Shown here piece after piece: positions 1,204 to 28,168 of a stretch of DNA of 64,000 nucleotides. Every line of letters begins with the position of its first letter. Positions within the stretch are counted from its first letter, which is position 1. The stretch comes from Prolixibacteraceae bacterium (GTDB lineage: Bacteria > Bacteroidota > Bacteroidia > Bacteroidales > Prolixibacteraceae), in contig JAUWAB010000013.1 of the NCBI GenBank assembly GCA_030602265.1, positions 1-64,000 on the forward strand, given 5' to 3'. A program made the translations under genes and the position numbers. The notes beneath the pieces are model-generated. The model did not search any database and had not been told where the DNA came from. It saw only the letters and a program-made list of their open reading frames with translations.

Positions 1204-3288
1204 TCAGGTTGACAAGGGAAGGCTGAGCATAAACACACTTCCTTTGTTGACCTTACTCTTAACCTGGATCTTTCCACCGTGGATTTCAGTTATTTCCCTC
1301 ACAAAATATAGTCCGAAGCCATTGCCTGCAGTATTTTTCAATCTTGTCGACCTGAATCCTGCTTCGAAAAGATTGTCCTTTTCCTCCATGGTAATTCCAT
1401 AACCTTGGTCAGCAATTACCAGACTCATCCATGCCTTTCTTGTCGTTAGCCTGATCCTGATCTCAGTGTTTTCGGGTGAATATTTAATACTGTTAAACAC
1501 CAGGTTCTCCACCACATTCAGAATTAACTGCCGGTCAATTTTTGCCATAACGGGCTCGGATGGTATGGAGCACCGTACGGTATGGGTATGATTTAATTTA
1601 TTGCGTTTTTTTTCATACCATGATGCAATTAATTCCGATACGTCGGTTAATCGCAAGGTTCCCGTGATCTTTCCTGATTCACCGGATGCATCATTAAGTA
1701 CCTTATTGGTCAGTTCATGCATATTCTTTACAATGTTGATAATGGTTTCCATATGCCTTTCAACGTCATCATCAGTCATTTTTTGCCTGTAGAGTAAGAT
1801 GGCTTCAGCCGACAAATGGATATTGGTAAGAGGCGTCTTTAATTCATGGGAGGCTGAGGATACCAGGGCTGTTTTCATCTCTCCAACTCTTTTTTCCAGT
1901 TCCAGCGCTATTTGCAGATTGATTTCGGCATGTTTCAGGGAGGTAATGTCCAGGGCTATGCCAACCTGTTTTGCAGGAATGCCGTCGTGTGAGCTGACCG
2001 GGTATACTTTTAACTGGTACCATCTTAATTCACCGCTGCTTTTATGAAAGCGTATCCTGATCTCCTCTGTTGCCCTAATATCGGTTTGGTTAAGGCAATT
2101 CAGGAGTATTTCAGTATCTTCATGATGAATCCTGCTGATCATTCCACTAAGATTTTCATTGCATGGACAGCCTGTTTCCCCGAAAAACATTCTGTAGGCC
2201 GGATTCTTGTATTCCACCTTACCCGAATCGAGATCCTTCAGCCAGAATATCTCTGTCACATGGTCTGCAAGCTGCCTGAATTTTTCTTCACTTGCAATCA
2301 ATTGCCATTCATTATCCCTGCTGTTTAGGGCATTGGCAATTATGCCTGCCATAAAGTCCAGTAATTTGGTTTCTGTCTCCGTATAGCGCTTAGCCGCATT
2401 CCTGTTGTCAAATCCAATGAATCCCCAAAGCTCATTTTTCTGGAATACGGGCATTGAAATATGTGAGCAGACACCCTGTAATTTCAGCATTTTCCTTACT
2501 CCGGATTCTTGCGGAAGGGTGGCAGCATCATGAATAATCACTGGTTTGTTTTGCCGGTGCCTCTCCAGAAATTCCGGCATAAGATCCAGTGAAATATCCC
2601 GGAGATTCTCCATTTCAGAAATTATTCCGGCGGAACACCATTCGAACGTTTTGCGGCAAACATTATGGGTAAAATCATATTCAAAAATAAATGCACTGTC
2701 TGTCCCGGTAAATCTTCCCGCTTCTTCGAGTGTTTTTCTAATGGCCGCATCAATCCCATTAGCCGGTATATTAATGAAATTGTTGGCTGCTGTAAGCAAA
2801 ATTTTTCTGACTGATGATTTTCTGATAATAGGATCTTTGATATTTCTCCGGTTGACTGGCTTTTTGAATATTCCTGCCGGGGTGTGATTCGAAGTTTCAT
2901 TTCGGCGATAATGCTGCTGATCGGTATCTTGAACCTGAGAAATTTCACGTGACCGGTTATTAATTATCAGGGTGATTAGGTCAGGGTTGCCATAAAAAGA
3001 GTCCCGGATCAGGATTTCCACTTCCTTGATATTCCCGTTTCTCAGGATATGACGCCATGTTCCGGGAAGGTTCGGCCGGTTATGTTTTTCTAAAAGACAA
3101 TCACTGATTTTTTCTCTTTCTTCGGTAGGGTGTAAATCAGTGAAACATAGGGCATACGGAATCTTTGCTTCAAGTCCATAGGCCATAATTCCGTTCTGGT
3201 TTACAAAACGCAACCTGAATCCGGATTTTTCAGCGATAAATATTGGTAGGGGAATTTCATTCAGAAGCGATAAATCTTCAGTTCTCAT
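1204..3288 (-). CDS. PAS/GAF-domain sensor histidine kinase
   Basis: A 694-residue sensor kinase without obvious membrane segments, so probably cytosolic. Reading order: PAS-like region (about 8-115), linker, GAF-like domain (about 175-325), second PAS (about 335-455), HisKA dimerisation helix and HATPase domain. The phosphoacceptor is His481 in the SHELKTPL H-box. The N box (NVVENLVFNSIKYSP), G1 (DQGYGI) and G2 (GNGFGLYFV) are all present, so the kinase looks catalytically competent. It phosphorylates a response regulator in reply to a signal that cannot be named from sequence. It is transcribed towards the response-regulator gene at the left edge and away from the gene at 3562. The second PAS followed by HisKA suggests redox or small-ligand input. 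Confidence 0.92.
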   Translation of the reverse strand: MRTEDLSLLNEIPLPIFIAEKSGFRLRFVNQNGIMAYGLEAKIPYALCFTDLHPTEEREKISDCLLEKHNRPNLPGTWRHILRNGNIKEVEILIRDSFYGNPDLITLIINNRSREISQVQDTDQQHYRRNETSNHTPAGIFKKPVNRRNIKDPIIRKSSVRKILLTAANNFINIPANGIDAAIRKTLEEAGRFTGTDSAFIFEYDFTHNVCRKTFEWCSAGIISEMENLRDISLDLMPEFLERHRQNKPVIIHDAATLPQESGVRKMLKLQGVCSHISMPVFQKNELWGFIGFDNRNAAKRYTETETKLLDFMAGIIANALNSRDNEWQLIASEEKFRQLADHVTEIFWLKDLDSGKVEYKNPAYRMFFGETGCPCNENLSGMISRIHHEDTEILLNCLNQTDIRATEEIRIRFHKSSGELRWYQLKVYPVSSHDGIPAKQVGIALDITSLKHAEINLQIALELEKRVGEMKTALVSSASHELKTPLTNIHLSAEAILLYRQKMTDDDVERHMETIINIVKNMHELTNKVLNDASGESGKITGTLRLTDVSELIASWYEKKRNKLNHTHTVRCSIPSEPVMAKIDRQLILNVVENLVFNSIKYSPENTEIRIRLTTRKAWMSLVIADQGYGITMEEKDNLFEAGFRSTRLKNTAGNGFGLYFVREITEIHGGKIQVKSKVNKGSVFMLSLPLST

Positions 3289-3561: not shown

Positions 3562-6558
3562 ATGTTACCTGATCTTGAAAATATTCAGGCACAGACCCGG
3601 CAGCTGATTCAGACCGGGTTTATTCCGCCACTTCAGCAATGGTGGGAAGACCATCGCCATCTGGTTGGCAATTATCTGGAAATCGTCAGAAAATATGAAA
3701 AACGGTTGCGGGGGGATGAACCTCCGGATAATCAGGGTGTGGCGTTTATGCATGATACCGTTGCACTGCTGTCCGGGTTTGTGAGACCTGAGGCCTTGCT
3801 CCGTTTTGACGACGAATTTGAAGAGTATTTTGTCCGTTCTTCCGGATATGTGGAACTCTTCCCCTCGAAGGTTTCAGCTGTTCAGCCAGATTCAGCCTTT
3901 CATCCTTATACCTGCGATCCCTTTCTTCTCCGATTGGGCAAGACCCTTTTGCAATTCTGGTTTCAGACTACCCGGCTGCCAGTGAAAACCATGAACCGCA
4001 TCAGAAAGACATTTAACAGGCCGTTGAAGCCTGTAGCTCCAATGAAGCGAACCGTTCCGCTGAAGAATATCATACATAACCTGCTCTTTCACCTCGTACC
4101 TGAGCAAGCTCTGAGTTTCCTGGTCGTCCCTCTTCTGGAGCAGATTGAAGCAGATATCAGCAGGCTGAGGGAGATCGATAACCTGGCAAGGGAGTTGCTA
4201 TCCGGAGAGTTGCGTTCCGGTTTGCAAAATAAGCGGTACAGGGAATTGGTTTCGCTGACCGGTGAGTTGCGACGGCAGCAAAAGTATGCATTTGAAGAGG
4301 GAATCGATAAGACATTTCTGAAAGTCATACCACAGCTTTCATTACACCTCGAAAAAGGTGGATCAATAGAGCTGCCATCCCGCGATTTCAACATTTCAAA
4401 GATTTCCAGAAGGCAGAACAGGGTGGCCGCTGAATTCAGGAAAATGGCCACACATGGCACCGTAAAAATCACCGGCTTACTTGATGAATGGCAATCGGAG
4501 GCAGCCTTGCTTCTGCTGGCAGACCGGGTTAATTCCCTTTCCGGGGAAACTGGCGCATTTATTTCGGGCTACCTGGGCAGCACCGTTTACTCTCCGGTGG
4601 ATTTGATTAAGTCTGAGCTGGCAGAAATGGCCGGCAGGCTGAATGCAGAGACGGCTTTTGAAAAGCTGGTCACCTGTCTGGCCGGACTAACAGATAAGAA
4701 TCTGAAGAAGCTTATTGAAGAAATCATCCCAGATGCGGAGACATACGTTTCCAATGAGGAACCAATTATCAGGATTCAGAATTACCTGGCCCTGGTTATG
4801 GAATATGTTGCCCAGACCAATGAATCTGTTCAGCTATTGCCGGCAGCCAGGAGTGATGAAAGGCTGTATACATCAGGTGACCTTACACGGATCAGGCTAA
4901 GGCAGCTTGTTGAACATGATGCACTTCCTCTGATCATTTCCCCTGTCTCAAAACTTAAAGAAAGGGTAGAGCAGGTAAGGGTACAATTGCGTGAGCAAAT
5001 TCTGGAAACCGGAAGAATCGCTGAATATAACCTGGAGACAGCAATAAGCCTTATTGGATCGGATACGCCTGAAGCGGAAATCAGGGAGATTGCTGTTGAA
5101 GGTCTCGGGCGTGCGCTGGATCGGATCTCGGAGACTATTGAAGGCCTTCAGGAAATGTCGGCTGGGATTTCTTCCACATTCGCGGAATCGGCCGCTCAAT
5201 TCACTACCAGACTGCGTTCTTATCTGACCACGGAAAACATGTTGGATGCAAGGAGCAGAATATTAAAAGCCAGAGCTTTAAAGAAGGGGGAGAACATCAG
5301 GCTGAGAATAACCGGGTGGAGCCGCTCCATGTGGTCCAGGTTGAGCGGGATGGCCGTGATAATTTGGACTTTTCTGGTGAGGCGTCATGCGCTTGTCAGG
5401 ATGAAGTTAGGGCTTGATCAGCCTGAACCGGTGGTTTCGCCGGAGATCTCTGACTTTTTAGCTGAAACACAAAAGGCGATTGCCCGTTTACCGTATGTTT
5501 ACCAGCGGCTTTTTGTACTGTCACCCCTTGATGATGAAAAATTTTTCAGGGGCAGAAAGGCCGAATTAGACAGATTGTCCGAGGCTTTCCGTAACTGGCA
5601 GTCGGGAAGGTACGCACCTGCTGTTATCGTGGGAGAAACGGGAAGTGGCACCACAAGCCTGCTCAACCTGTTCTCTCATTACCACCTTTCAGGATTTACC
5701 GTGCACCGTATCGAGGCTACCCTGCCGGTTACGGAGGAGAAAGAATTCTTTTCACTGATATCCGGAGTTATTTCAGGGAAACAGGTGACCGGGAAAGAGG
5801 AGCTGATAAACCGGCTGAATGATCTTCCCTCCAGGCAGGTAATCATACTGGAAGGTATCCATCATCTGTTTATCAGGAATATCCATGGGTTTAAAGTGGT
5901 CAGGATGTTTGCCGAAGTGATTTCGGCGACAAACCATCATATTTTCTGGCTCACTACATCCACACTTTATGGTTGGCAATACCTTGACAAAGTCATGCAA
6001 TTATCTGACTTTTTCGGGTATATTACTGAATTGCGCGCCCTGTCTGATGAGGAGATTGTTGAAGTGATCCTCAGGCGACATATGGCCAGCGGGTACAACC
6101 TGAAGTTTGAACGGCCGGAAGGGGAGAAGCCTGGGCGTAAAGTGGCCCAGATGACCAGAGCCGAAGAGCAACAATATTTGAAAAACCGGTATTTCAATTC
6201 TCTTAATCAGTTTGCAAGGAGCAATATCGCTATTTCTATGCTGCTCTGGCTGAGGTCAGCTAAAGAAGTTAAAGGTAATGAAATTACCATTGCCTTGCCC
6301 CGGGGACTCTCCGTCTCCTTCATAAAGACCCTCTCCAGGGATAAGCTGTTCCTTTTGCAGGCTTTGCTGGTGCACGACGGACTCCCTTCAGAGGGTATCG
6401 CCGGAGTACTGAACTTTACAGTTGAAAAATCACGGTTGCTGGTTATCCAGTTGTACGACGATGGTATTATCGTCCGCAAAAATGATTTGTATGTGGTAAA
6501 TCCCTTATTGTACAGACAGGTTGTGGGAACATTAAGGGATGCGAATCTGATACATTGA
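3562..6558 (+). CDS. Large P-loop-like protein with deviant Walker A, next to MscS
   Basis: A 998-residue protein; ATG at 3562 is preferred over an in-frame TTG at 3547. Residues 1-600 are mostly helical and charged without recognisable family motifs. Around 670-850 lies an AAA/STAND-like nucleotide-binding region: hydrophobic strand, then GETGSGTTS (691-699), then VIILEGIHHLF (about 760-770) as the Walker B candidate. The invariant Walker A Lys is Thr (residue 697), and the Walker B acidic residue is Glu764, so hydrolysis may be impaired or of unusual type. The C-terminal ~100 residues look like a winged-helix. No signal peptide is evident; one weakly hydrophobic stretch near 598-608 is too short for a confident membrane helix. 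The MscS gene follows 122 nt later on the same strand, suggesting a shared role. Function unknown. Confidence 0.8.
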   Translation: MLPDLENIQAQTRQLIQTGFIPPLQQWWEDHRHLVGNYLEIVRKYEKRLRGDEPPDNQGVAFMHDTVALLSGFVRPEALLRFDDEFEEYFVRSSGYVELFPSKVSAVQPDSAFHPYTCDPFLLRLGKTLLQFWFQTTRLPVKTMNRIRKTFNRPLKPVAPMKRTVPLKNIIHNLLFHLVPEQALSFLVVPLLEQIEADISRLREIDNLARELLSGELRSGLQNKRYRELVSLTGELRRQQKYAFEEGIDKTFLKVIPQLSLHLEKGGSIELPSRDFNISKISRRQNRVAAEFRKMATHGTVKITGLLDEWQSEAALLLLADRVNSLSGETGAFISGYLGSTVYSPVDLIKSELAEMAGRLNAETAFEKLVTCLAGLTDKNLKKLIEEIIPDAETYVSNEEPIIRIQNYLALVMEYVAQTNESVQLLPAARSDERLYTSGDLTRIRLRQLVEHDALPLIISPVSKLKERVEQVRVQLREQILETGRIAEYNLETAISLIGSDTPEAEIREIAVEGLGRALDRISETIEGLQEMSAGISSTFAESAAQFTTRLRSYLTTENMLDARSRILKARALKKGENIRLRITGWSRSMWSRLSGMAVIIWTFLVRRHALVRMKLGLDQPEPVVSPEISDFLAETQKAIARLPYVYQRLFVLSPLDDEKFFRGRKAELDRLSEAFRNWQSGRYAPAVIVGETGSGTTSLLNLFSHYHLSGFTVHRIEATLPVTEEKEFFSLISGVISGKQVTGKEELINRLNDLPSRQVIILEGIHHLFIRNIHGFKVVRMFAEVISATNHHIFWLTTSTLYGWQYLDKVMQLSDFFGYITELRALSDEEIVEVILRRHMASGYNLKFERPEGEKPGRKVAQMTRAEEQQYLKNRYFNSLNQFARSNIAISMLLWLRSAKEVKGNEITIALPRGLSVSFIKTLSRDKLFLLQALLVHDGLPSEGIAGVLNFTVEKSRLLVIQLYDDGIIVRKNDLYVVNPLLYRQVVGTLRDANLIH

Positions 6559-6680
6559 CAACAATGAAAGGGGTTCTTTTTTTTTGGAGGTAAAAGCTAT
6601 TTTGAAACATAAGTTTCTGTGGAGGCACAACAAGGTTAATCAAGGTAAGCAGATTTATTAAAAATCAATTGTTGAATGGC

Positions 6681-7676
6681 ATGACAATCAAGCGTTTAGT
6701 TATACTGATTTCGGGGATGTTAATCATTTCCGCATGGTTTTCCGGAAATGTATGCGCCCTTTCCATTGTGGCAGGCGATTCTGAAAATATCGCTGGAACT
6801 ACATTAATCCAGGATTCATTATCGGTAACATCTGTTGCCGTGGATAATGCTGCTGCTGGTTCGTCAAAGGACGAATCCCTGGCGGAAAGGCTGCAGAGGC
6901 CCGATATTGCCCGTGTGATATCTTTGCAGAAAATATTCTGGGCCCTGGTAGTTGGCATCATTTCGTGGCTGGTCATCAATTTCCTGATCCGGGTGACCTC
7001 TGCGTTCGGGGAAAGGCACCCCAACCGCAGAATTGCGGTTAAAAGGCTGATCCCCATCATCCGTATTGCCGGATGGACTTTCGTAACCTACCTGATTATT
7101 GTTGGTGTTTTTCAGCCACCTGTAGAGACGGTATTTGCGTTCTTTGCTTCAGTCGGTGTGGCTATCGGTTTTGCTTCCCAGGATCTGCTTAAAAATATTT
7201 TCGGAGGATTGGTGATTCTCTTTGACCGGCCGTTTCATGTTGGCGATAAAATAGAAGTGGGAAAATATTACGGGGAAGTCCTGGAGATCGGTCTGAGGTC
7301 AACCCGCATAGTAACGGCCGACGATTCGATTGTGGCGGTTCCCAATGGTGAGATGATGAACCAGTCGATCTCCAACTCCAATTCAGGAGAATCCAATTGC
7401 CAGGTTGTTGCTGAATTCTACCTGCCCCTGGGTACGGATACGGGTAAGGCACGTTCCATAGCCACGGAGGCAGCGAAAGTTTCCAGATATGTATATCTGA
7501 ACAAACCCGTAGTCGCCGTTTTCTTCCATGAAGTGGAGGGGCCGCGTACCTATATCAAAATGAGACTGAAAGCTTATGTAAGTGATATCCGCGACGAGTT
7601 CGCCTTTAAAAGCGACATGTCGGAACTGGTCATCAGGGAGTTCCTGAAAGAGGGACTGTTGGAGGAAGGCTGGTAA
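6681..7676 (+). CDS. Small-conductance mechanosensitive channel (MscS family)
   Basis: A 331-residue MscS-type channel that would open under membrane tension to release solutes. ATG at 6681 gives a clean N-terminal hydrophobic segment (VILISGMLIISAWF) that may be a signal peptide or first helix; TTG codons at 6669 and 6672 are less likely. Two further membrane helices lie about 95-115 and 135-155, followed by the pore helix with small residues (FFASVGVAIGFASQDLLKN) and the beta-domain signature FDRPFHVGDKIEV. The C-terminal alpha/beta domain is present. It follows the deviant P-loop gene in the same orientation and probably shares its transcript. It converges with the act operon, only 9 nt from the actF stop. 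Confidence 0.92.
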   Translation: MTIKRLVILISGMLIISAWFSGNVCALSIVAGDSENIAGTTLIQDSLSVTSVAVDNAAAGSSKDESLAERLQRPDIARVISLQKIFWALVVGIISWLVINFLIRVTSAFGERHPNRRIAVKRLIPIIRIAGWTFVTYLIIVGVFQPPVETVFAFFASVGVAIGFASQDLLKNIFGGLVILFDRPFHVGDKIEVGKYYGEVLEIGLRSTRIVTADDSIVAVPNGEMMNQSISNSNSGESNCQVVAEFYLPLGTDTGKARSIATEAAKVSRYVYLNKPVVAVFFHEVEGPRTYIKMRLKAYVSDIRDEFAFKSDMSELVIREFLKEGLLEEGW

Positions 7677-7685
7677 TTTTTTACC

Positions 7686-8846
7686 CTAAAAATGATGGGC
7701 TACGCTCTCTTCAAGATAGGGATGGTTTTTGGGAACAAGGCTGGCTTTTGTCAGGGCTGTTGCCGTGACAAGTGAGAATAATCCGGTAAAACCCAGGAAA
7801 CATCCGATCTCAAGCAGTCCGAAGCTGGCCTTGTGTACCGTAGCCGGCCAAATGATGTAATAAAGTTCGGTATATTGCCCGATCATCAGAAGAATAATTA
7901 CCGGAATCAGGACCGGTTTGCTTCTCGAAGTTTTCCGGGGCATCAGTACAATGAACGGAATGCCCCAGTTGATCACGATATTGGCATAGAAGAGCACCTG
8001 CCAGACTCCATCCCACCGATGGGCAAAGAATGCCGTCTCTTCCGGAATATTGGCATACCAGATCAGCATGAATTCTGCAAAGTTGAAGTAGCCCCATACG
8101 ATACTGGCCATAAAAATATATCTGGTGAAATCGTGCAGGTGGCTGTGGTTAAGCATTTTAAAATGCCCCATCCGGTGGAGCATGAATACAATGAAGGCTA
8201 TGATGGTCGACGCGTGCAGGACAGCCGCCATGAAACTCCTGCCGGCGAACAGCGTACTAAACCAGTGGGGCTCGAGCGACATCAGTGCATCAACAGCGAA
8301 CAGGCTGAATGTGAGGGCAACTACAAAGATCAGGATGCGGGAGTACATTTCCGATTTATAGAAATATCGTGTTCCCCCTTCGATATCTTCCTTTACTGAA
8401 ATCTTTCTCATCACGGAAGTCAGGATAATCCATGCCCCAAAGAACAGGATCATACGGATAAAAAAGAAGGTTTCGTTCAGGTATGGCGATTTATGTTGCA
8501 GGAGCCGGTCGGTTTGTACGGCCTCTTCATGAGTCCAGTGATACAGCGAATGCATCCCGAAATACATCAACAGGAAAAGGACACCCCCAACGGGCAGGTA
8601 AGCGGTCATGGCTTCCGGTACCCTTTTAAAGGCTGCTGACCAGCCTGCCTGCGCCACATATTGAATGGCAATGAAAAAGGCTGCTCCGATTGCAAGGGAA
8701 ACAAAATAATAGTTGTTCAGGAGAAAGTTGGCCCATGTTCTCTGGCTGTCGATGAAAAATCCCAGTGTAAAGCTGACCACGCCAATACCTATCAGCAGAT
8801 AAGCGGCTAACCTGAATTTTTGCGGTATGGTAAATCTGTCTTCCAT
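7686..8846 (-). CDS. actF: ACIII subunit ActF (membrane quinol oxidoreductase subunit)
   Basis: A 386-residue polytopic protein with about ten hydrophobic helices and no cofactor motifs, at the last position of the act operon. ActF belongs to the NrfD/PsrC-like membrane subunit group and pairs with ActC in the quinol-oxidising membrane part of alternative complex III. Identity rests on the order ActA-B-C-D-E-F and on the helix pattern with conserved aromatic and His residues such as HSLYHWTHEEAV and HRMGHF. It starts 23 nt after actE. In many relatives cytochrome oxidase genes follow actF; here an opposing MscS gene follows instead. Confidence 0.88.
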   Translation of the reverse strand: MEDRFTIPQKFRLAAYLLIGIGVVSFTLGFFIDSQRTWANFLLNNYYFVSLAIGAAFFIAIQYVAQAGWSAAFKRVPEAMTAYLPVGGVLFLLMYFGMHSLYHWTHEEAVQTDRLLQHKSPYLNETFFFIRMILFFGAWIILTSVMRKISVKEDIEGGTRYFYKSEMYSRILIFVVALTFSLFAVDALMSLEPHWFSTLFAGRSFMAAVLHASTIIAFIVFMLHRMGHFKMLNHSHLHDFTRYIFMASIVWGYFNFAEFMLIWYANIPEETAFFAHRWDGVWQVLFYANIVINWGIPFIVLMPRKTSRSKPVLIPVIILLMIGQYTELYYIIWPATVHKASFGLLEIGCFLGFTGLFSLVTATALTKASLVPKNHPYLEESVAHHF

Positions 8847-8869
8847 GTCTCATGTAATTTTCCGGATGG

Positions 8870-9439
8870 TTATTCTGCCTGCGCTTGCAGTACATTTCTC
8901 ACATAGTGGGTAATTTTCCAGCGGTCGTCAGGCCGGATCATCGATCCATGCTCAGCCATTATACCATGTCCTGCCGTGATGACATGGTAGAAATCACCGT
9001 CGGTCGCACCCATCATCTTCTCGCTCAGCAGGCTGGCAGGCGGATAGGTATATTTTCCCGAGGTGTACAGAGACCCTTTTCCGTCGCCCTGTGGACCGTG
9101 GCAAATCATACAATAGATTTCATACATCTTTTTCCCCCGTTCCAGGTTTTCGGCAGTAATTTCGAGCGGGTTCTCCAGTGTACTGGCAGCAATCAGCCGG
9201 TCTTCATCGGTTTTTTTATACGGATAGGGGATCATTTCCCGTGGGATGGTTCCTTCCACCGGCGGTTGCATGGTTTTTCCGTCGGCAAAATTGGGATTAG
9301 GCGTATAGGTCTCATACGCCGGGGATTTCGCCATATCATCGAAATATTGCCATCCGGTGGTATTTCTCCGGTAATCACAGGAAGAAAGCAGCCCTATCAT
9401 TCCGGCTAAACTGATAATCAAATAGTATTTTCTTCTCAT
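8870..9439 (-). CDS. actE: ACIII subunit ActE (monoheme cytochrome c lipoprotein)
   Basis: A 189-residue lipoprotein. The chosen ATG gives a signal peptide ending in the lipobox LLSSC (Cys21); upstream in-frame ATG and TTG codons overlap actD and would spoil the signal. One heme c site, CMICH at about 110-114, lies in the YEIYCMICHGPQGDGKG context typical of class I cytochromes, and several downstream Met residues could serve as axial ligand. ActE is the membrane-anchored monoheme subunit of ACIII, passing electrons towards a soluble carrier or oxidase on the periplasmic face. It begins 7 nt after the actD stop and is surely co-transcribed. Confidence 0.9.
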   Translation of the reverse strand: MRRKYYLIISLAGMIGLLSSCDYRRNTTGWQYFDDMAKSPAYETYTPNPNFADGKTMQPPVEGTIPREMIPYPYKKTDEDRLIAASTLENPLEITAENLERGKKMYEIYCMICHGPQGDGKGSLYTSGKYTYPPASLLSEKMMGATDGDFYHVITAGHGIMAEHGSMIRPDDRWKITHYVRNVLQAQAE

Positions 9440-9446
9440 GGTCTTT

Positions 9447-9947
9447 TTATTTCTCGATTGCTCCATGTTCCTTAACAATTTGCACTATCATGTCTTCCTT
9501 TTCCTTACTGAATTCTGAGCTGAAAAGCATGACAAATTTGTCGTCGGTTGCCTGTGGGTGGAAAATCTCTGGTTCCTTTCCGGGGAAAATTTTTGCTCTT
9601 ACCGAGAAGGTAAACAGGGTAAGAATGGTAATTACGAGAATAGTCGCCACAATATTAACCACAATAAACGACGGAAAGGCGTTGAACGGTTTTCCCCCGA
9701 AATGCAGTGGCCAGTCAATTACCGAGACATAATACATAAAACCGATGAGGCCGATGGTTGAGAATAATCCGAAGAAAAATGCCGCATGGGAAATCCTGGT
9801 TTTATTGCCCATGCCATCCAGAATTTCGTGGACAGGGTAGGGGGTATATACCTCGTCGGGTTTTAATCCCTTCTCTTTCAGCTTTCCGAATGCAGCGACC
9901 AGGCTGTCTTCATCGCTGAACACTCCGGTGAAGTATTTTTTATTCAT
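9447..9947 (-). CDS. actD: ACIII subunit ActD (DUF3341)
   Basis: A 166-residue protein of the DUF3341 family. It has a short soluble N-terminus (FTGVFSDEDSLVAAFGKLKE) followed by PYPVHEILD, the characteristic family motif, then two hydrophobic helices (about 58-78 and 93-113) and a soluble tail. ActD carries no cofactor and is a structural membrane subunit beside ActC. Its start overlaps the actC stop by 8 nt, which implies translational coupling. Confidence 0.9.
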   Translation of the reverse strand: MNKKYFTGVFSDEDSLVAAFGKLKEKGLKPDEVYTPYPVHEILDGMGNKTRISHAAFFFGLFSTIGLIGFMYYVSVIDWPLHFGGKPFNAFPSFIVVNIVATILVITILTLFTFSVRAKIFPGKEPEIFHPQATDDKFVMLFSSEFSKEKEDMIVQIVKEHGAIEK

Positions 9948-11328
9948 GGTGTGAACTGTTTGATGCTGAGACTCTTGGTTTGTTAAATTTTGCCACGCTT
10001 TTTACCTCGCTGATGGCTATCATAGGAATAAAGCGGAAGAAGAGCAACACTCCGGATATAAATAATCCTAAGGTTCCGATGAAAATACCCACTTCGATCC
10101 ATGAAGGTGAATAGTCAGCCCAGTTTGCGGGCAGGTAGTCACGGCTCAGGGAGGTGATTACAATATTGAACCTTTCGAACCACATCCCGATATTGATGAT
10201 AATGGAAATGATGAAAACGATCCAGATTCTTTTCCGTACTGCCTTGAACCAGAACAGCTGGGGAACGACTGCATTGGCAATGAACATGGCCCAGAACTGG
10301 AAGGCAAAGTCACCGAACATCCTGCTGTTGAATATTATACTGAATTCATAAATGGATCCGGAATACCAGGCCATAAAGATCTCGGTCATATAGGCCGTTC
10401 CCATGATCAGCGAAATGAATATCAGTACCCTGCACACTGCATCTATATGACTGTCTGTGACATAGTCATGCATTCTATATAATCCCCGCATTACGGTAAC
10501 CAGAGTGAGCACCATGGCAAATCCGGAGAAAATGGCGCCGATTACGAAATACGGCGGGAAAATGGTTGTATGCCATCCGGGAATGACACTCACTGCAAAG
10601 TCGGTTGAAACGATGGAGTGTACTGATACCACCAGTACGGCTGCAATTCCGCCTAACACAAAACTGAGTCCTTCATACCTGAGCCACTCTTTGCTTGAAC
10701 CCGTCCAACCAAAGGCAAAAAAACCATAAATGGCCTTTTTGATTTTGGATTTGGCGGTATCGCGGATGGTGGCAAAATCGGGAACCATGCCAAAATACCA
10801 GAAGCTTGCCGAGATCAGGATGTAGGCCGTAATGGCCACGAAGTCCCAGAACAGGGGCGAGTTAAAATTGACCCACAGCGGACCGCGGGTGTTGGGATAG
10901 GGGAAAATATAAAAAAACAGCCAGGGCCTTCCCATGTGCAGCAGCGGAAAAAGTCCGGCGCACATTACGGCCACAACTGTCATGGCCTCCGCGGCGCGGT
11001 TGATGGCCGTTCTCCATTGTTGCCTGAGGATCAGCAGGAATATGGAGAATGCGGTTCCGGCATGACCAATCCCGATCCACCACACAAAATTCACAATCGC
11101 CCATCCCCAGCCGATGGTGTTGTTCAGTCCCCAGCCGCCGATACCATACGCCAGGGTAAGGTATATGCAGTAGAGTCCGAAGCCAAGCATTCCCAGGCTG
11201 ACAGCCATGGCAGCGAACCACCAGACCGGCGTTTTGGCATCAATGGGTGCAATGATATCCCGGCTGATCTGGGCCAGGCTCTTATCCCCGTTGATCAGGG
11301 GACCTCTGATTTCTGTCTTGTAAATCAT
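9940..11328 (-). CDS. actC: ACIII subunit ActC (NrfD/PsrC-type quinol oxidase subunit)
   Basis: A 462-residue integral membrane protein with about ten helices, of the NrfD/PsrC family. It is the membrane subunit where quinol is oxidised in alternative complex III, docked to the Fe-S part of ActB. Family-like features include the IGWGWAIVNFVWWIGIGHAG segment, RQQWRTAINRAAEAMT, and several conserved His and acidic residues within helices. Sixteen nucleotides separate it from actB, and it overlaps actD, so the operon order is fixed. Confidence 0.92.
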   Translation of the reverse strand: MIYKTEIRGPLINGDKSLAQISRDIIAPIDAKTPVWWFAAMAVSLGMLGFGLYCIYLTLAYGIGGWGLNNTIGWGWAIVNFVWWIGIGHAGTAFSIFLLILRQQWRTAINRAAEAMTVVAVMCAGLFPLLHMGRPWLFFYIFPYPNTRGPLWVNFNSPLFWDFVAITAYILISASFWYFGMVPDFATIRDTAKSKIKKAIYGFFAFGWTGSSKEWLRYEGLSFVLGGIAAVLVVSVHSIVSTDFAVSVIPGWHTTIFPPYFVIGAIFSGFAMVLTLVTVMRGLYRMHDYVTDSHIDAVCRVLIFISLIMGTAYMTEIFMAWYSGSIYEFSIIFNSRMFGDFAFQFWAMFIANAVVPQLFWFKAVRKRIWIVFIISIIINIGMWFERFNIVITSLSRDYLPANWADYSPSWIEVGIFIGTLGLFISGVLLFFRFIPMIAISEVKSVAKFNKPRVSASNSSHHE

Positions 11329-11343
11329 ATATACTTCAGTTAA

Positions 11344-14304
11344 TCAGGCGTTAGTGTTCCGGATTTTGGTCAGATAGCCTACCGATGGCAGGGTGTGCAG
11401 TTCTTCCAGTAAATGGTAGTTTCTCGGATCTCCCGGGATTCCGGGGTCTGAGCTCTTTCCGATAAGCCGGAAAACCCGGCTGTCGTGGTTGTTCATGTCG
11501 CCAAACACAAAGGCTCCCGACGGGCAGGACTGCACACAGGCCGGTTCGATTTCTCCATCGCTGATGGATCGCTGTTCCACTTTCGCCAGGTGCTTTTTCT
11601 CCTGAATCCGCTGAATGCAGAAGGTGCACTTCTCCACCACTCCTCTCGACCGGACGGTCACATCGGGATTGAGTACCATTCTGCCCAGATCACTGTTTGA
11701 AGCATAGTCAAACTTATCGTTGCCGTGGAACTGGAGCCAGTTGAAACGGCGGACCCTGTATGGGCAGTTATTCAGACAGTAACGTGTTCCCACACAACGG
11801 TTATAGGCCATCTGGTTCAGCCCCTCACTGCTGTGCGGAGTAGCGGCGACCGGACAAACATTCTCGCACGGTGCATTGTCGCAATGCTGGCACATGACCG
11901 GCTGGAAGGACACTTTCGGATTTTCGGGTGCACCACTGAAGTAACGGTCAATTCTGATCCAGTGCATGATACGGCGGGCCCTTACCTGTTCCTTGCCTAT
12001 TACCGGAATATTGTTTTCGACCTGACAGGCTATAGTACAGTTTCCGCAACCGGTGCAGGAATTCAGGTCGACTGCCAGGCCCCAGTGGTGACCGGGGAAC
12101 TCTGGTTTGTCGTATAAAGTGGTGTAATGCTTCAGATGTTCTTCCCTGATTTCATTTCCCGATGCAGGATTTCTGCTCCATTCGTCGAAAGTGGATTCCC
12201 TGACAATAGGCCTTCCTTCCATGCTGTGATGAGTCTGCGATAAGGCCAGGGGATATTTTTTACCGGTTACTTCCACGGTAAGTCCCTGAACAAAATACTC
12301 ACGTCCATGGTTTCTCTGGTTCACCAGCCGGAACATATTTTTCCCGATTCCGTTGCCGGTTTTTCCAGCGATGGTGCGACCGTAGCCAAGCGCTACCGCA
12401 ATGGTATTTTCTGCCTGTCCGGGTTGCACAAAAACGGGTAATTCAATCCCATTTATCGCGATTACTCCTTCATTGGCTATTTTTTGTTCTTCTGCCCATT
12501 TCACCGGTACAGAGGCGAAATTATCCCAGCTGATTTTTGCAATCGGATCGGGTAATTCCTGAAGCCAGGGATTGTTAGCATACTTGCCGCTTTTCAGGGC
12601 AATGCTTTCATAGAGTACCAGCTCCCAGCCATCGGATGAAGGAGTCGCCTTCTCAAGCGCTTCGGCCAGGCCTTGGTCGGAATAGTTCAGGGACGGACCG
12701 GTTACCGGTAATTCAAGAATGCCCTTTTGTAAGGTATTGTTCCAGAAATCCGTGAAATTAATGTATTCGTTCTGACGGGGATAAATTTCCGTTTGCCAGT
12801 GCTGACGAAGGTAATCATAGAAGGATATTTCATTGCCTGTCCACCGGAGGAGGGATTCTTCAGCCTGACGGCTGTCAAACAACTTTTGAATAACCGGCTG
12901 TGTCAAGCTGTATGATCCGGTTTTGGGTTCTGCATCTCCCCAGCTTTCCAGGTAGTGGGTTCCCGGACAAGTCCACTGACAAAGACTGGTAGTCTCATCA
13001 TTTCGGTCGGCAAAGGAAACAGACAGCTCAAGTTTACTGATGGCCTCTCCGATAGAGCCTCCTTCCGGATGGTCATAAACCGGGTTGACATCCATCAGAA
13101 TAATGCCTGCAACCTGACCTTTGGTAAGCCCTGCAATCCATGCCGCCGAATCTTCAGCAGTACCCTGGAGGGCAAGCAGGGACCGGTCAAAGGTAATGGT
13201 GCTGCCAATGTTTTCCAGAAGCTGGTTAATGGCATTAACGATTGTCTGGTTTTCCGGGGCATTACTGCCTGAAATTACCAGTCCCTTACCCCTCTTGTTC
13301 CAAAGGTCGGATGCAACGGCAGTAAGATCGTGACTGGTAAGCTTGCTGACTGTGCCAGGACTCCCTGATAGTTTTTTCAGTTCTTGCAGGAGATCGGCCA
13401 GAATGGCTGTCTCTTCAGAGGGTTTGCAAGGTATCCGTATATCGGCGTTCGATCCGGTAACCGAAAGTGCGGCTTCAAACTGGTAGTGGCGCGACATGCG
13501 CCTGCCATTCCGAAGGTCCCTGCCCGCCGCATATTTTGAGGTATATTCTACCGGAGAAAGCCATGTACCCAGAAAATCTGCCGCAAAGGATACGATTACC
13601 TCAGCCTTGTCGAAGTGATAATCGGGAATCACCGCCCTGCCGAATGAGGCCTCGTTGGCCTTAAGGATACCCGAGGCCGGCATGGGTTCGTATACTTGCC
13701 AGGTAATATTTGGATAGGCCGTCAGGAAGCTGCTGATAACACTCCTGCTGGTTGGGGAGATAATGGCTGGTGTAATCAGGAGGACCATTTTGCCCTCACT
13801 TCCCAGTTTATTCAGGGAAGCAACAACTGCCTCGTCTGCCACCTTCCAGCTGACGGGTTCCCCGTTTTTAAGAGGACTTTTAAAGCGTGCATCGTCATAA
13901 AGGTTCAGCAGGGAAGCCTGAACCCTTGCAGAGGTCCCTTTTCTGGAAATGGGTGACAGGTCGTTCCCCTCGATCTTGATGGGGCGTCCGTCCCGTACCT
14001 TCACCAGAACAGAACAATACTCGCCTTGATCGTAATAGGTAGTAGCATAATAGTTTGCTTTCCCCGGAGTGACTTCCTCCGGTTTTATGAGAAACGGAAT
14101 GGCCTTTTCGACCGGTTTCTTGCATGATGCCACCAGGGCCGATCCGGCAACCGTAAAACCGAAGGCTTTCAGGAAATCCCGCCGTGAGGTGCCGTTTTCC
14201 TGAGTGTGAACCGCTTTCTTATGTTCCAGTTCAGCTAAAAGTTCAGTTTTTTTAAATTCCTTCGGATTGTCTCTTTCTTCAAGGCTTCTCCAGTATTTTT
14301 CCAT
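11344..14304 (-). CDS. actB: ACIII subunit ActB (molybdopterin-like/Fe-S fusion)
   Basis: A 986-residue periplasmic protein with a Tat signal (SRRDFLKAFGF) followed by a lipobox-like LVASC. The N-terminal ~720 residues resemble a molybdopterin oxidoreductase; in characterised ACIII this domain carries no molybdenum cofactor. The C-terminal ~250 residues form an Fe-S domain of the PsrB/NrfC kind, with four cysteine groups: CTGCGNCTIAC, CQHCDNAPCENVCP, CVGTRYCLNNCP and CTFC with a later CVQSCP. These would hold several Fe-S clusters linking ActC to the hemes of ActA. Length and fusion match Bacteroidota ActB. It lies 39 nt downstream of actA. Confidence 0.93.
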   Translation of the reverse strand: MEKYWRSLEERDNPKEFKKTELLAELEHKKAVHTQENGTSRRDFLKAFGFTVAGSALVASCKKPVEKAIPFLIKPEEVTPGKANYYATTYYDQGEYCSVLVKVRDGRPIKIEGNDLSPISRKGTSARVQASLLNLYDDARFKSPLKNGEPVSWKVADEAVVASLNKLGSEGKMVLLITPAIISPTSRSVISSFLTAYPNITWQVYEPMPASGILKANEASFGRAVIPDYHFDKAEVIVSFAADFLGTWLSPVEYTSKYAAGRDLRNGRRMSRHYQFEAALSVTGSNADIRIPCKPSEETAILADLLQELKKLSGSPGTVSKLTSHDLTAVASDLWNKRGKGLVISGSNAPENQTIVNAINQLLENIGSTITFDRSLLALQGTAEDSAAWIAGLTKGQVAGIILMDVNPVYDHPEGGSIGEAISKLELSVSFADRNDETTSLCQWTCPGTHYLESWGDAEPKTGSYSLTQPVIQKLFDSRQAEESLLRWTGNEISFYDYLRQHWQTEIYPRQNEYINFTDFWNNTLQKGILELPVTGPSLNYSDQGLAEALEKATPSSDGWELVLYESIALKSGKYANNPWLQELPDPIAKISWDNFASVPVKWAEEQKIANEGVIAINGIELPVFVQPGQAENTIAVALGYGRTIAGKTGNGIGKNMFRLVNQRNHGREYFVQGLTVEVTGKKYPLALSQTHHSMEGRPIVRESTFDEWSRNPASGNEIREEHLKHYTTLYDKPEFPGHHWGLAVDLNSCTGCGNCTIACQVENNIPVIGKEQVRARRIMHWIRIDRYFSGAPENPKVSFQPVMCQHCDNAPCENVCPVAATPHSSEGLNQMAYNRCVGTRYCLNNCPYRVRRFNWLQFHGNDKFDYASNSDLGRMVLNPDVTVRSRGVVEKCTFCIQRIQEKKHLAKVEQRSISDGEIEPACVQSCPSGAFVFGDMNNHDSRVFRLIGKSSDPGIPGDPRNYHLLEELHTLPSVGYLTKIRNTNA

Positions 14305-26830: not shown

Positions 26831-28168
26831 ATGACACAGCAACTCTATAAATTTCTTCTGGAATTATTCAGGAACCACCAATTTTTTGATGTAGTTGCCA
26901 AACCACTGGCTGCATTTCTGTCGGTTATGGCCTTGTTGCTGTTTGCATGGCTGGCATTGATCGTTTTCAGGTTCATCATTCTCAAGGTTGTACGCAAGAT
27001 AGCCCGGAAAACCAAAACCGAATGGGATGATATACTGATCCACAGGAAGGTTTTCCACAGTCTGGCACACCTGGTTCCCGCATTTATTTTCCACTACAGC
27101 GTGGGTTTTGCCAGTCCGGGAGAACAATTGCATTTATCCGGAATGTCGCCTGAGGTTCTTCAGCAGGTAACCGTGGATTATTACCCGGGATTAGCCGGGT
27201 TTCTGATGAAACTGGTAAATTTCTATTTCCTATTTGTGGCGATATATATCATCAATTCTGTGCTGAATGCCTTTAACGATATTTACCAGACCACTTCCTA
27301 TTCCCAGCACAGGAGTATTAAAGGTTATATCCAACTTTTAAAGATACTGATCTATTTTCTATGCGCCATACTGATCTTCTCCATCATCTTAGGGAAAGAC
27401 CCGACCGTCCTGATTGCGGGAATGGGCGCTATGGCGGCGGTATTATTGCTGGTTTTCAAGGATACGATCCTGGGTTTTGTTGCTTCTATTCAGCTTTCGG
27501 CCAACGATATGCTGAAAATTGGCGACTGGATAGAAATGCCCGGACACAAGGCCGACGGAACGGTTATCGACATCACCCTCAATACGGTAAAGGTGCAGAA
27601 CTGGGACCGCACCATCACCACCATTCCCACCTATGCTCTGGTATCCGAGTCGTTCAACAACTGGAAAGGAATGGAAGAGTCGGGAGGTCGACGGATCAAA
27701 AGGGCCGTTTATATCGATGTCAACTCCATCCGGTTTTGTGATGAGGAGATGTTGAAGCGCTTGTCGCGCTGCGAGCTGATCCGCGATTATGTACTTAGCA
27801 AGGAAGAGGAAATCCGGGATTATAATCAAAAAATGAACATTTCTGAAGAAGACCTGATCAGTAAGCGACGCCAGACCAATGTGGGGATTTTTCGCAAATA
27901 CCTTGAAAATTATCTGCGTAACAGTGTACGCATCAGGCAGGATATGACGTTTCTGGTCAGACAGCTGCAACCTACCGACAAGGGGTTACCGATAGAAATC
28001 TATGTTTTCAGCAAGGAAACAGCGTGGGCACTTTATGAGAATCTGCAGGCCGATATATTTGACCATGTCTTCGCGGTTATTCCGGAATTCGGGTTGAGGG
28101 TGTTCCAGGCACCTTCCGGTAATGATATCCGGGAGGCAACGGAAAATCTGCGAAAACAACACCAGTGA
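26831..28168 (+). CDS. Mechanosensitive channel, YbdG/MscM-like
   Basis: A 445-residue MscS-superfamily protein, longer than the one at 6.7 kb. About five hydrophobic helices precede the pore region (VLIAGMGAMAAVLLLVFKDT followed by ILGFVASIQLSANDMLKIGDWIEM). An insertion near NLNTVKVQNWDRTITTIPTYAL-type sequence and a long C-terminal domain resemble YbdG. Expected role is a miniconductance response to membrane tension. Its start lies 45 nt from the divergent peptidase gene, and a TAATTTTG box at 26793-26800 could serve as its -7 element. Confidence 0.88.
   Translation: MTQQLYKFLLELFRNHQFFDVVAKPLAAFLSVMALLLFAWLALIVFRFIILKVVRKIARKTKTEWDDILIHRKVFHSLAHLVPAFIFHYSVGFASPGEQLHLSGMSPEVLQQVTVDYYPGLAGFLMKLVNFYFLFVAIYIINSVLNAFNDIYQTTSYSQHRSIKGYIQLLKILIYFLCAILIFSIILGKDPTVLIAGMGAMAAVLLLVFKDTILGFVASIQLSANDMLKIGDWIEMPGHKADGTVIDITLNTVKVQNWDRTITTIPTYALVSESFNNWKGMEESGGRRIKRAVYIDVNSIRFCDEEMLKRLSRCELIRDYVLSKEEEIRDYNQKMNISEEDLISKRRQTNVGIFRKYLENYLRNSVRIRQDMTFLVRQLQPTDKGLPIEIYVFSKETAWALYENLQADIFDHVFAVIPEFGLRVFQAPSGNDIREATENLRKQHQ

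Follow-up and report, generated by a model that had tools for sequence, protein, structure and literature searches.

The window analysed here, a 64,000-nucleotide stretch of contig JAUWAB010000013.1 from a Prolixibacteraceae bacterium, carries on its forward strand a gene for a large P-loop protein (the module protein), followed on the same strand by a gene for a channel of the MscS type. On balance, we think it probable that these two genes form a dedicated pair, in which a soluble regulator that binds nucleotide is encoded together with an MscS-type channel of its own. MscS is the textbook channel that opens in response to membrane tension and nothing else. In the family described below, which occurs in many Bacteroidota and their relatives, the two genes are found paired with great regularity and, in relatives, are mutually dedicated; other members of the module family are fused to transporters, and the P-loop of the module, which lies in a predicted AAA+ fold, is degenerate and nevertheless under selection.

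Homologues were collected via the large protein and not via MscS, so the counts of adjacency are not circular. The module family had matches in 12 of 61 relatives, in 76 of 393 genomes of an order sample, 15 of 295 of a class sample and 72 of 395 of a phylum sample; an alignment scan of the contigs of named genomes yielded 27 loci, and a single-protein scan yielded none. A first set of 134 distinct genes, with copies of more than 98.5% identity merged, was drawn from the relatives, the order and phylum samples and the named-genome scan, leaving aside 45 weaker order-sample matches, three phylum-sample genomes and the class-sample hits. The Walker columns and the tree rest on these 134 genes alone; 132 of them cover the motif columns, and 131 have enough flank for adjacency. 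The full set comprises 190 distinct family genes, 183 testable and seven with too little flank, after removal of L210-L213 (20-38 bits, too weak), L214 (no module open reading frame, ORF) and two copies. MscS genes were called with an iterated hidden Markov model built from six partner proteins.

A same-strand MscS gene lies within 400 bp of the module gene in 125 of the 131 genes of the first set (112 downstream, 13 upstream) and in 166 of the 183 testable genes of the full set, where the median gap is 3 bp and 153 of the 166 gaps fall within 50 bp either way. The neighbourhood with MscS, whose conservation the preliminary description of this DNA had left to be checked, is thus kept. The fraction is lower in the full set because that set includes, from the SLC12-type branch, 13 testable genes without an adjacent MscS. 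This branch, recognized by script in the full set from a motif in the N-terminal part or from a Trp that follows Walker B, is paired in 52 of 65 cases, compared to 114 of 118 outside it. The four misses outside are L136, with an over-called start and MscS upstream, and L163, L165 and L218, which are fragments from a contig end. The 13 inside (L080, L084, L092, L172, L173, L176, L189, L191, L193, L202, L228, L230 and L231) are true misses, all far from the branch of the window. When ten partner genes were compared with Pfam, nine matched PF00924 above cut-off and one, L087, stayed below it (17.4 versus 20.2 bits). At four loci (L130, L138, L141 and L164) the same-strand MscS is upstream of the module, and a second MscS-like gene lies further up on the opposite strand. 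In the clade of L145-L150, the reading frame beside MscS is open over just 298-433 residues, which include the AAA+ part. Two matches of this clade (G493 and G524) contain an internal stop, so here the gene for the large protein may have been split or have decayed.

The pairing is mirrored in co-occurrence and in divergence. Partner-type MscS (E≤1e-40) was found in six of the 61 relatives, exactly the six with the full module of about 1000 residues, a coincidence expected once in 55.5 million if the two sets were independent. The other six relatives with a module match comprise five with a protein of 1654-1777 residues and G045, which has a 135-residue piece at a contig end. Distances in the module and MscS trees correlate with r = 0.49 over 103 pairs, uncorrected for the species tree (best of 2000 shuffles, 0.217), and with 0.825 in the clade of the window and 0.637 in another clade (40 each). 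Adjacency counts, distance correlation and co-occurrence together rule out a chance neighbourhood of module and MscS.

The elements of the locus, in coordinates of the window, are the following:

3562 to 6558, + strand: module protein gene, 998 residues from ATG 3562, 1003 residues from TTG 3547
3562 to 5406, + strand: N-terminal domain (residues 1-615) with long helices, from AlphaFold2 and hydropathy
5443 to 6315, + strand: AAA+-like core and lid (residues 628-918), ORC/Cdc6-like fold in the predicted model
5632 to 5658, + strand: degenerate Walker A GETGSGTTS (residues 691-699), with Thr697 (ACC, 5650-5652) in the place of the lysine
5839 to 5871, + strand: degenerate Walker B VIILEGIHHLF, with Glu764 at 5851-5853, followed by Gly765, and His at +3
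6073 to 6096, + strand: RRHMASGY motif, which closes the first lid helix and has Arg839 as its second Arg
6316 to 6555, + strand: C-terminal winged-helix-like domain (residues 919-998), from predicted secondary structure; Orc2/TnsC matches reach residues 996-998
6559 to 6680, + strand: intergenic gap, 122 bp to ATG 6681 (110 bp to TTG 6669)
6681 to 7676, + strand: MscS channel gene with PF00924; the ORF opens at TTG 6669, and ATG 6681 fits the homologues

For the module gene, the start of the 998-residue protein proposed earlier, ATG 3562, agrees with the starts of aligned homologues; the likely start of the MscS gene, judged in the same way, is ATG 6681. The assignment of this second gene to MscS in the preliminary description held up as well, its product matching PF00924 (MS_channel_2nd) with 75.2 bits (E = 4e-21, cut-off about 20) and containing four hydrophobic segments. 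The gap between the two genes contains no terminator-like or promoter-like consensus on the + strand. In Pfam, the module protein matches just AAA_16 at residues 662-710, below threshold (25.4 bits, cut-off 32.6); its nSTAND1 match of 14.2 bits also lies under the cut-off of 27.1 and gives no membership in the STAND family. Its nearest named relatives are found in Prolixibacteraceae bacterium UBA5740 (43%) and Bacteroidales bacterium 6E (42%), and within its own genome, a 4.41-Mb assembly of 168 contigs, the gene is the sole match. The same genome has six PF00924 matches in all, among them a second MscS-type gene in the window (26831-28168, + strand, 445 residues, PF00924 at 27461-27667) with no module homologue beside it.

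The preliminary description had read a Thr in place of the Walker A lysine and a Glu heading Walker B, and both readings are correct (Thr697, Glu764). The window protein thus lacks what marks an active P-loop NTPase, namely the Walker A lysine and a Walker B with a lead Asp and a catalytic acid. When the window protein is aligned with its first five homologues, which are 23-43% identical to it, the lysine place is seen to be occupied by T, I, I, T, I and A, while the G, E, G, S, G and T of the loop are invariant. Among the 132 genes that cover the motif, 72 have Lys and 60 another residue (I 14, R 14, T 8, A 8, V 6, N 3, L 3, M 3, S 1). In a tree of 133 rows, built by a quick method without the Walker columns, the window falls into a clade of 41 rows (support 97), 36 of which lack the lysine and five of which have it; most lysine-keeping genes belong to other branches. 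The 36 lysine-less members of this clade show eight different residues at the lysine place, from Ile through Asn, with no constant substitute, and all keep both inner glycines and the following Ser/Thr. Their Walker B is led by Glu in 35 cases, with Asn or Gly next in 29; over all 41 members, the lead is Glu in 36 and Asp in five, and the next residue is Asn in 25, Gly in nine, Asp in four, His in two and Lys in one. Judged from these columns, the clade of the window has lost both the Walker A lysine and the acids normally found in Walker B. All 132 genes share the second Arg of the lid motif RRHxxSGY.

Elsewhere in the family, the lysine follows the branches. It is present in 23 of 23 SLC12-type genes of the first set, and in the full set 65 of the 115 genes read outside this branch lack it, compared with one of 71 inside. 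Its state requires at least seven changes on the tree, against 34-49 in 30 label shuffles (eight if one gapped row is taken as non-Lys, seven without that row), so the loss is clade-wise and repeated; as the tree is quick and has long branches, 'several changes' is a safer statement than a number. Within the clade of the window, four of the five rows with Lys have a lead Asp and 35 of the 36 rows without it have another lead residue, an association that provides no test of coupling, since it contains just three independent pairs on supported branches. In a second clade of 40 read rows, 37 have Lys and 39 a lead Glu, with Asn, Gly or Ser next in 35. The lead Asp can therefore go while the lysine stays, and a strict coupling of the two changes is ruled out.

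The substitution at Thr697 could have been a slip of sequencing, a local mutation or the mark of a decayed gene. The invariant residues around it in homologues, the clade-wide loss and the dN/dS ratios of 0.09 and 0.07 for two lysine-less gene pairs (five other pairs were saturated) rule this out, and the ratios show that the module gene is under strong purifying selection. What marks this position in the clade of the window is the absence of lysine and not the threonine, whose conservation the preliminary description had left to be checked. Homologues with a normal lysine, which that description would have taken to indicate a local mutation, do exist, five of them within the clade, but the loss is not local for all that. 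Its idea that the missing lysine is tied to the channel was not borne out: of the 125 paired genes of the first set, 67 keep the lysine, 56 lack it and two could not be read. Lysine loss as a mark of MscS pairing is thereby ruled out, and since both states pair with MscS, the loss is secondary.

The full-length model, based on an alignment of 27 rows, has a mean pLDDT of 85.8 and a pTM of 0.58, a value that leaves the relative placing of the module halves unsure; residues 1-618, modelled alone with AlphaFold2, reach a pLDDT of 89.8 and a pTM of 0.76. From residue 641 on, the C-terminal part matches ORC/Cdc6, TnsC and RuvB structures (Foldseek E from 6e-7), among them 2qby_A (Z 16.1, 281 residues aligned, rmsd 6.3, model residues 642-973). 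The model thus predicts an AAA+ core, a lid and a winged helix in an ORC/Cdc6-like arrangement, a likeness of fold only: by sequence, the window protein has no significant match to the ORC/Cdc6 family (AAA_16 alone, below threshold), and the ORC-CDC6-like family PF24389 was found in one of 22 homologues (E = 1.2e-4). The N-terminal domain, with long helices at residues 278-362 and 557-615, has no match among PDB structures at E≤0.001; the nearest, a designed bundle, stands at 0.046. With VIA-align it scores Z 15.8 against a designed bundle, 12.4 against a rice protein and 10.7 against a bacterial dynamin, values that are within the chance range of helical bundles and are not evidence of a new fold. 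A profile search against PDB sequences returned apolipoprotein A-IV at positions 196-432 (E = 6.6e-6), which we take as a likeness of amphipathic helices, and further down weak coiled-coil, P-loop and winged-helix matches. Hydropathy profiles of 25 proteins reveal no conserved transmembrane segment in the N-terminal part; the best 19-residue value is 1.71 in the window protein and at most 1.46 in the 24 others.

The module accompanies ion transport in several forms, as is evident from its fusions and neighbours, a wider context absent from the preliminary description. Relatives of about 1700 residues start with a transporter of the amino-acid-permease/SLC12 type and end with the module; AA_permease (PF00324) was found in four of four tested members (E = 7e-48 to 2e-50) and SLC12 (PF03522) in one of the four (E = 6e-9). 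These fusions are mostly followed by a small MscS-like gene of about 240 residues. In relatives of about 1500 residues, the N-terminal part is Na_H_Exchanger (two of two tested, E = 2e-15 and 7e-19), and MscS is next. One same-strand run, L079:4484-12469, joins a Na+/H+-exchanger-module fusion with MscS, TrkH and TrkA. The N-terminal part of a 1465-residue fusion at L135:4062-8459 matches nothing in Pfam and is perhaps another type of transporter. At L083:3015-3869, an SLC12-type fusion has same-strand MscS-like genes on both sides. Several modules of the SLC12 branch (L092:6127-9111, L228 and L230-L232), about 1000-1120 residues long or cut by the contig, have no MscS beside them; L092 is a solo module gene, with ORFs upstream that look by eye like signalling proteins, and L228, L230 and L231 are of the 1120-residue or cut type.

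Several other explanations of these data have to be weighed. The long helices of the N-terminal domain, together with its match to the bacterial dynamin (5oxf_C, 284 residues aligned, rmsd 8.4), would suit a partner in assembly, targeting or membrane shaping, for which this domain is a channel scaffold and not a ligand sensor. We consider this unlikely, as the dynamin score is typical of helical bundles and the conserved glycines of the P-loop would be left unexplained. It also seemed conceivable that the pair serves defence or cell suicide, with an AAA+/STAND-like protein that would detect an invader and respond by opening the MscS pore, the effector, in line with the weak AAA_16 and nSTAND1 matches and the patchy distribution of the family across the samples. 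In the comparisons made, with PADLOC models and with plasmids, however, neither window protein has a PADLOC match at E≤1, the PADLOC matches among 22 homologues are scattered, each covering one or two proteins (best E 6e-5), and the window protein has no plasmid match. As the fusions to SLC12-type transporters and Na+/H+ exchangers and the TrkH/TrkA neighbour also speak against defence, we regard it, too, as rather unlikely.

Many of the top structural matches are DNA-bound ORC/Cdc6 proteins and TnsC, and a weak profile match links the C-terminal part to the winged-helix transcriptional regulator 2d1h_A (E = 0.01), which would suit a DNA-binding regulator of osmotic genes, the channel gene included. 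Such a role is awkward to reconcile with modules fused to membrane transporters and with a pairing with MscS kept over large distances, and we hold it to be improbable. The least probable explanation, in our view a very slim one, is a working ATPase in which another residue replaces the lysine. Purifying selection would agree with it, as would the Arg at the lysine place in 10 of the 16 rows of the clade with a Gemmatimonadota locus; the clade of the window, however, has settled on no substitute, and its lysine-less rows have also departed from the usual Walker B.

We therefore return to the dedicated pair of regulator and channel, against which a number of points must be counted. The contact between module protein and channel is something we infer, the kept glycine loop can be structural, with nucleotide binding likewise a matter of inference, and the predicted winged helix could mean DNA binding. 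The 13 unpaired SLC12-type genes indicate that the module can do without an adjacent MscS in that distant branch. The co-occurrence over 61 genomes partly reflects two genes moving as one unit, the correlation of distances includes the shared species tree, and the gap in the window is one of the longest of the family (third of 125 in the first set). With these points taken into account, the module protein most likely acts in the cytosol to regulate how ions or osmolytes are released, and in the clade of the window it would bind but not hydrolyse nucleotide. Nucleotide would be bound by the AAA+ core in the cytoplasm, in this clade without hydrolysis, so that the core would act as a switch that is either ligand-occupied or empty; the helical domain or the winged helix might then touch the cytoplasmic part of the channel and set its opening, and the release of ions or osmolytes would track the internal state of the cell in addition to membrane tension. 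There is precedent for soluble nucleotide-binding partners that gate transport in KtrA and KefF, and the module protein may work like these subunits, with an unrelated fold.

The pair and the transporter fusions suggest an undescribed way in which bacteria control their salt and water balance. More tentatively, and with some doubt, we propose that a single initiator-type AAA+ module, whose lysine was repeatedly lost, controls ion uptake as well as ion release among Bacteroidota and their relatives: as a separate protein it would gate its own MscS, as a fused domain it would also govern transport, and nucleotide sensing would link pressure release to transport. A widespread soluble partner whose nucleotide site is conserved but often dead would place some members of the MscS family under the control of metabolism or of ligands, and would offer a direct experimental handle on MscS gating. 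The fusions suggest that one module coordinates uptake and release, and the family provides a natural series for the fate of a pseudo-ATPase after lysine loss.

Around the pair, the window contains on the - strand (7686-14304) NrfD-like and large Fe-S protein genes and a c-type cytochrome-like ORF (CxxCH by eye), a group that we take to resemble alternative complex III. Judged by eye, L008:1-396 and the gene at 7686-8846 are homologous, so this neighbour is common to the genus. A GAF/PAS histidine kinase gene (1204-3288, - strand) is transcribed divergently from the module gene, and upstream lies a partial response-regulator/LuxR-type ORF (56-805, + strand); neither was seen beside the pair within the short flanks of L010 and L011.

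No dedicated Pfam or NCBIfam family was found for the 22 homologues, window protein included, their commonest matches being the generic AAA_16 (16 of 22) and AAA_22 (13 of 22). Judged by title or start of abstract, the literature matches listed for the pair, the module and bacterial SLC12 proteins, from a search with few subscription journals in its scope, hold no description of the pair or the module; in the portion of PMC4301019, on SLC12, that was covered, prokaryotic terms stand solely in the references. Within this literature, the pairing of AAA+ protein and MscS is apparently undescribed. As a broader kind, ion-transport proteins that have a soluble partner binding nucleotide are already known.

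With the ORC/Cdc6 proteins, and nearby TnsC and RuvB, the module shares the AAA+ core, the lid and the C-terminal winged helix of its predicted model; it differs from them in its helical N-terminal domain of about 600 residues, in the lost Walker lysine and Walker B acid, and in its place next to an ion channel gene or, in relatives, fused to transporters. STAND NTPases have a P-loop core and a winged helix in common with it and resemble it in the weak nSTAND1/AAA_16 matches, but in the window's clade the lysine is lost, the Pfam scores are below cut-off and no repeat sensor domain is seen. SLC12 cation-chloride cotransporters correspond to the fused N-terminal part of the 1700-residue relatives, a part that the window protein lacks; to our knowledge, eukaryotic SLC12 proteins are without an AAA+ module. 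The second gene of the pair is an ordinary MscS by PF00924, set apart by its dedicated soluble partner gene, and we know of no such partner for other MscS channels. KtrA/TrkA (RCK) and KefF, which bind nucleotide as soluble subunits and gate K+ transporters, provide a comparison of function. The module protein has no RCK/TrkA or flavodoxin-like family among its listed Pfam matches at E≤10, and in L079 TrkA is a separate neighbour gene. In its proposed role, it would resemble these subunits as the cytosolic nucleotide-binding partner of an ion-conducting protein, with an unrelated fold and a different channel.

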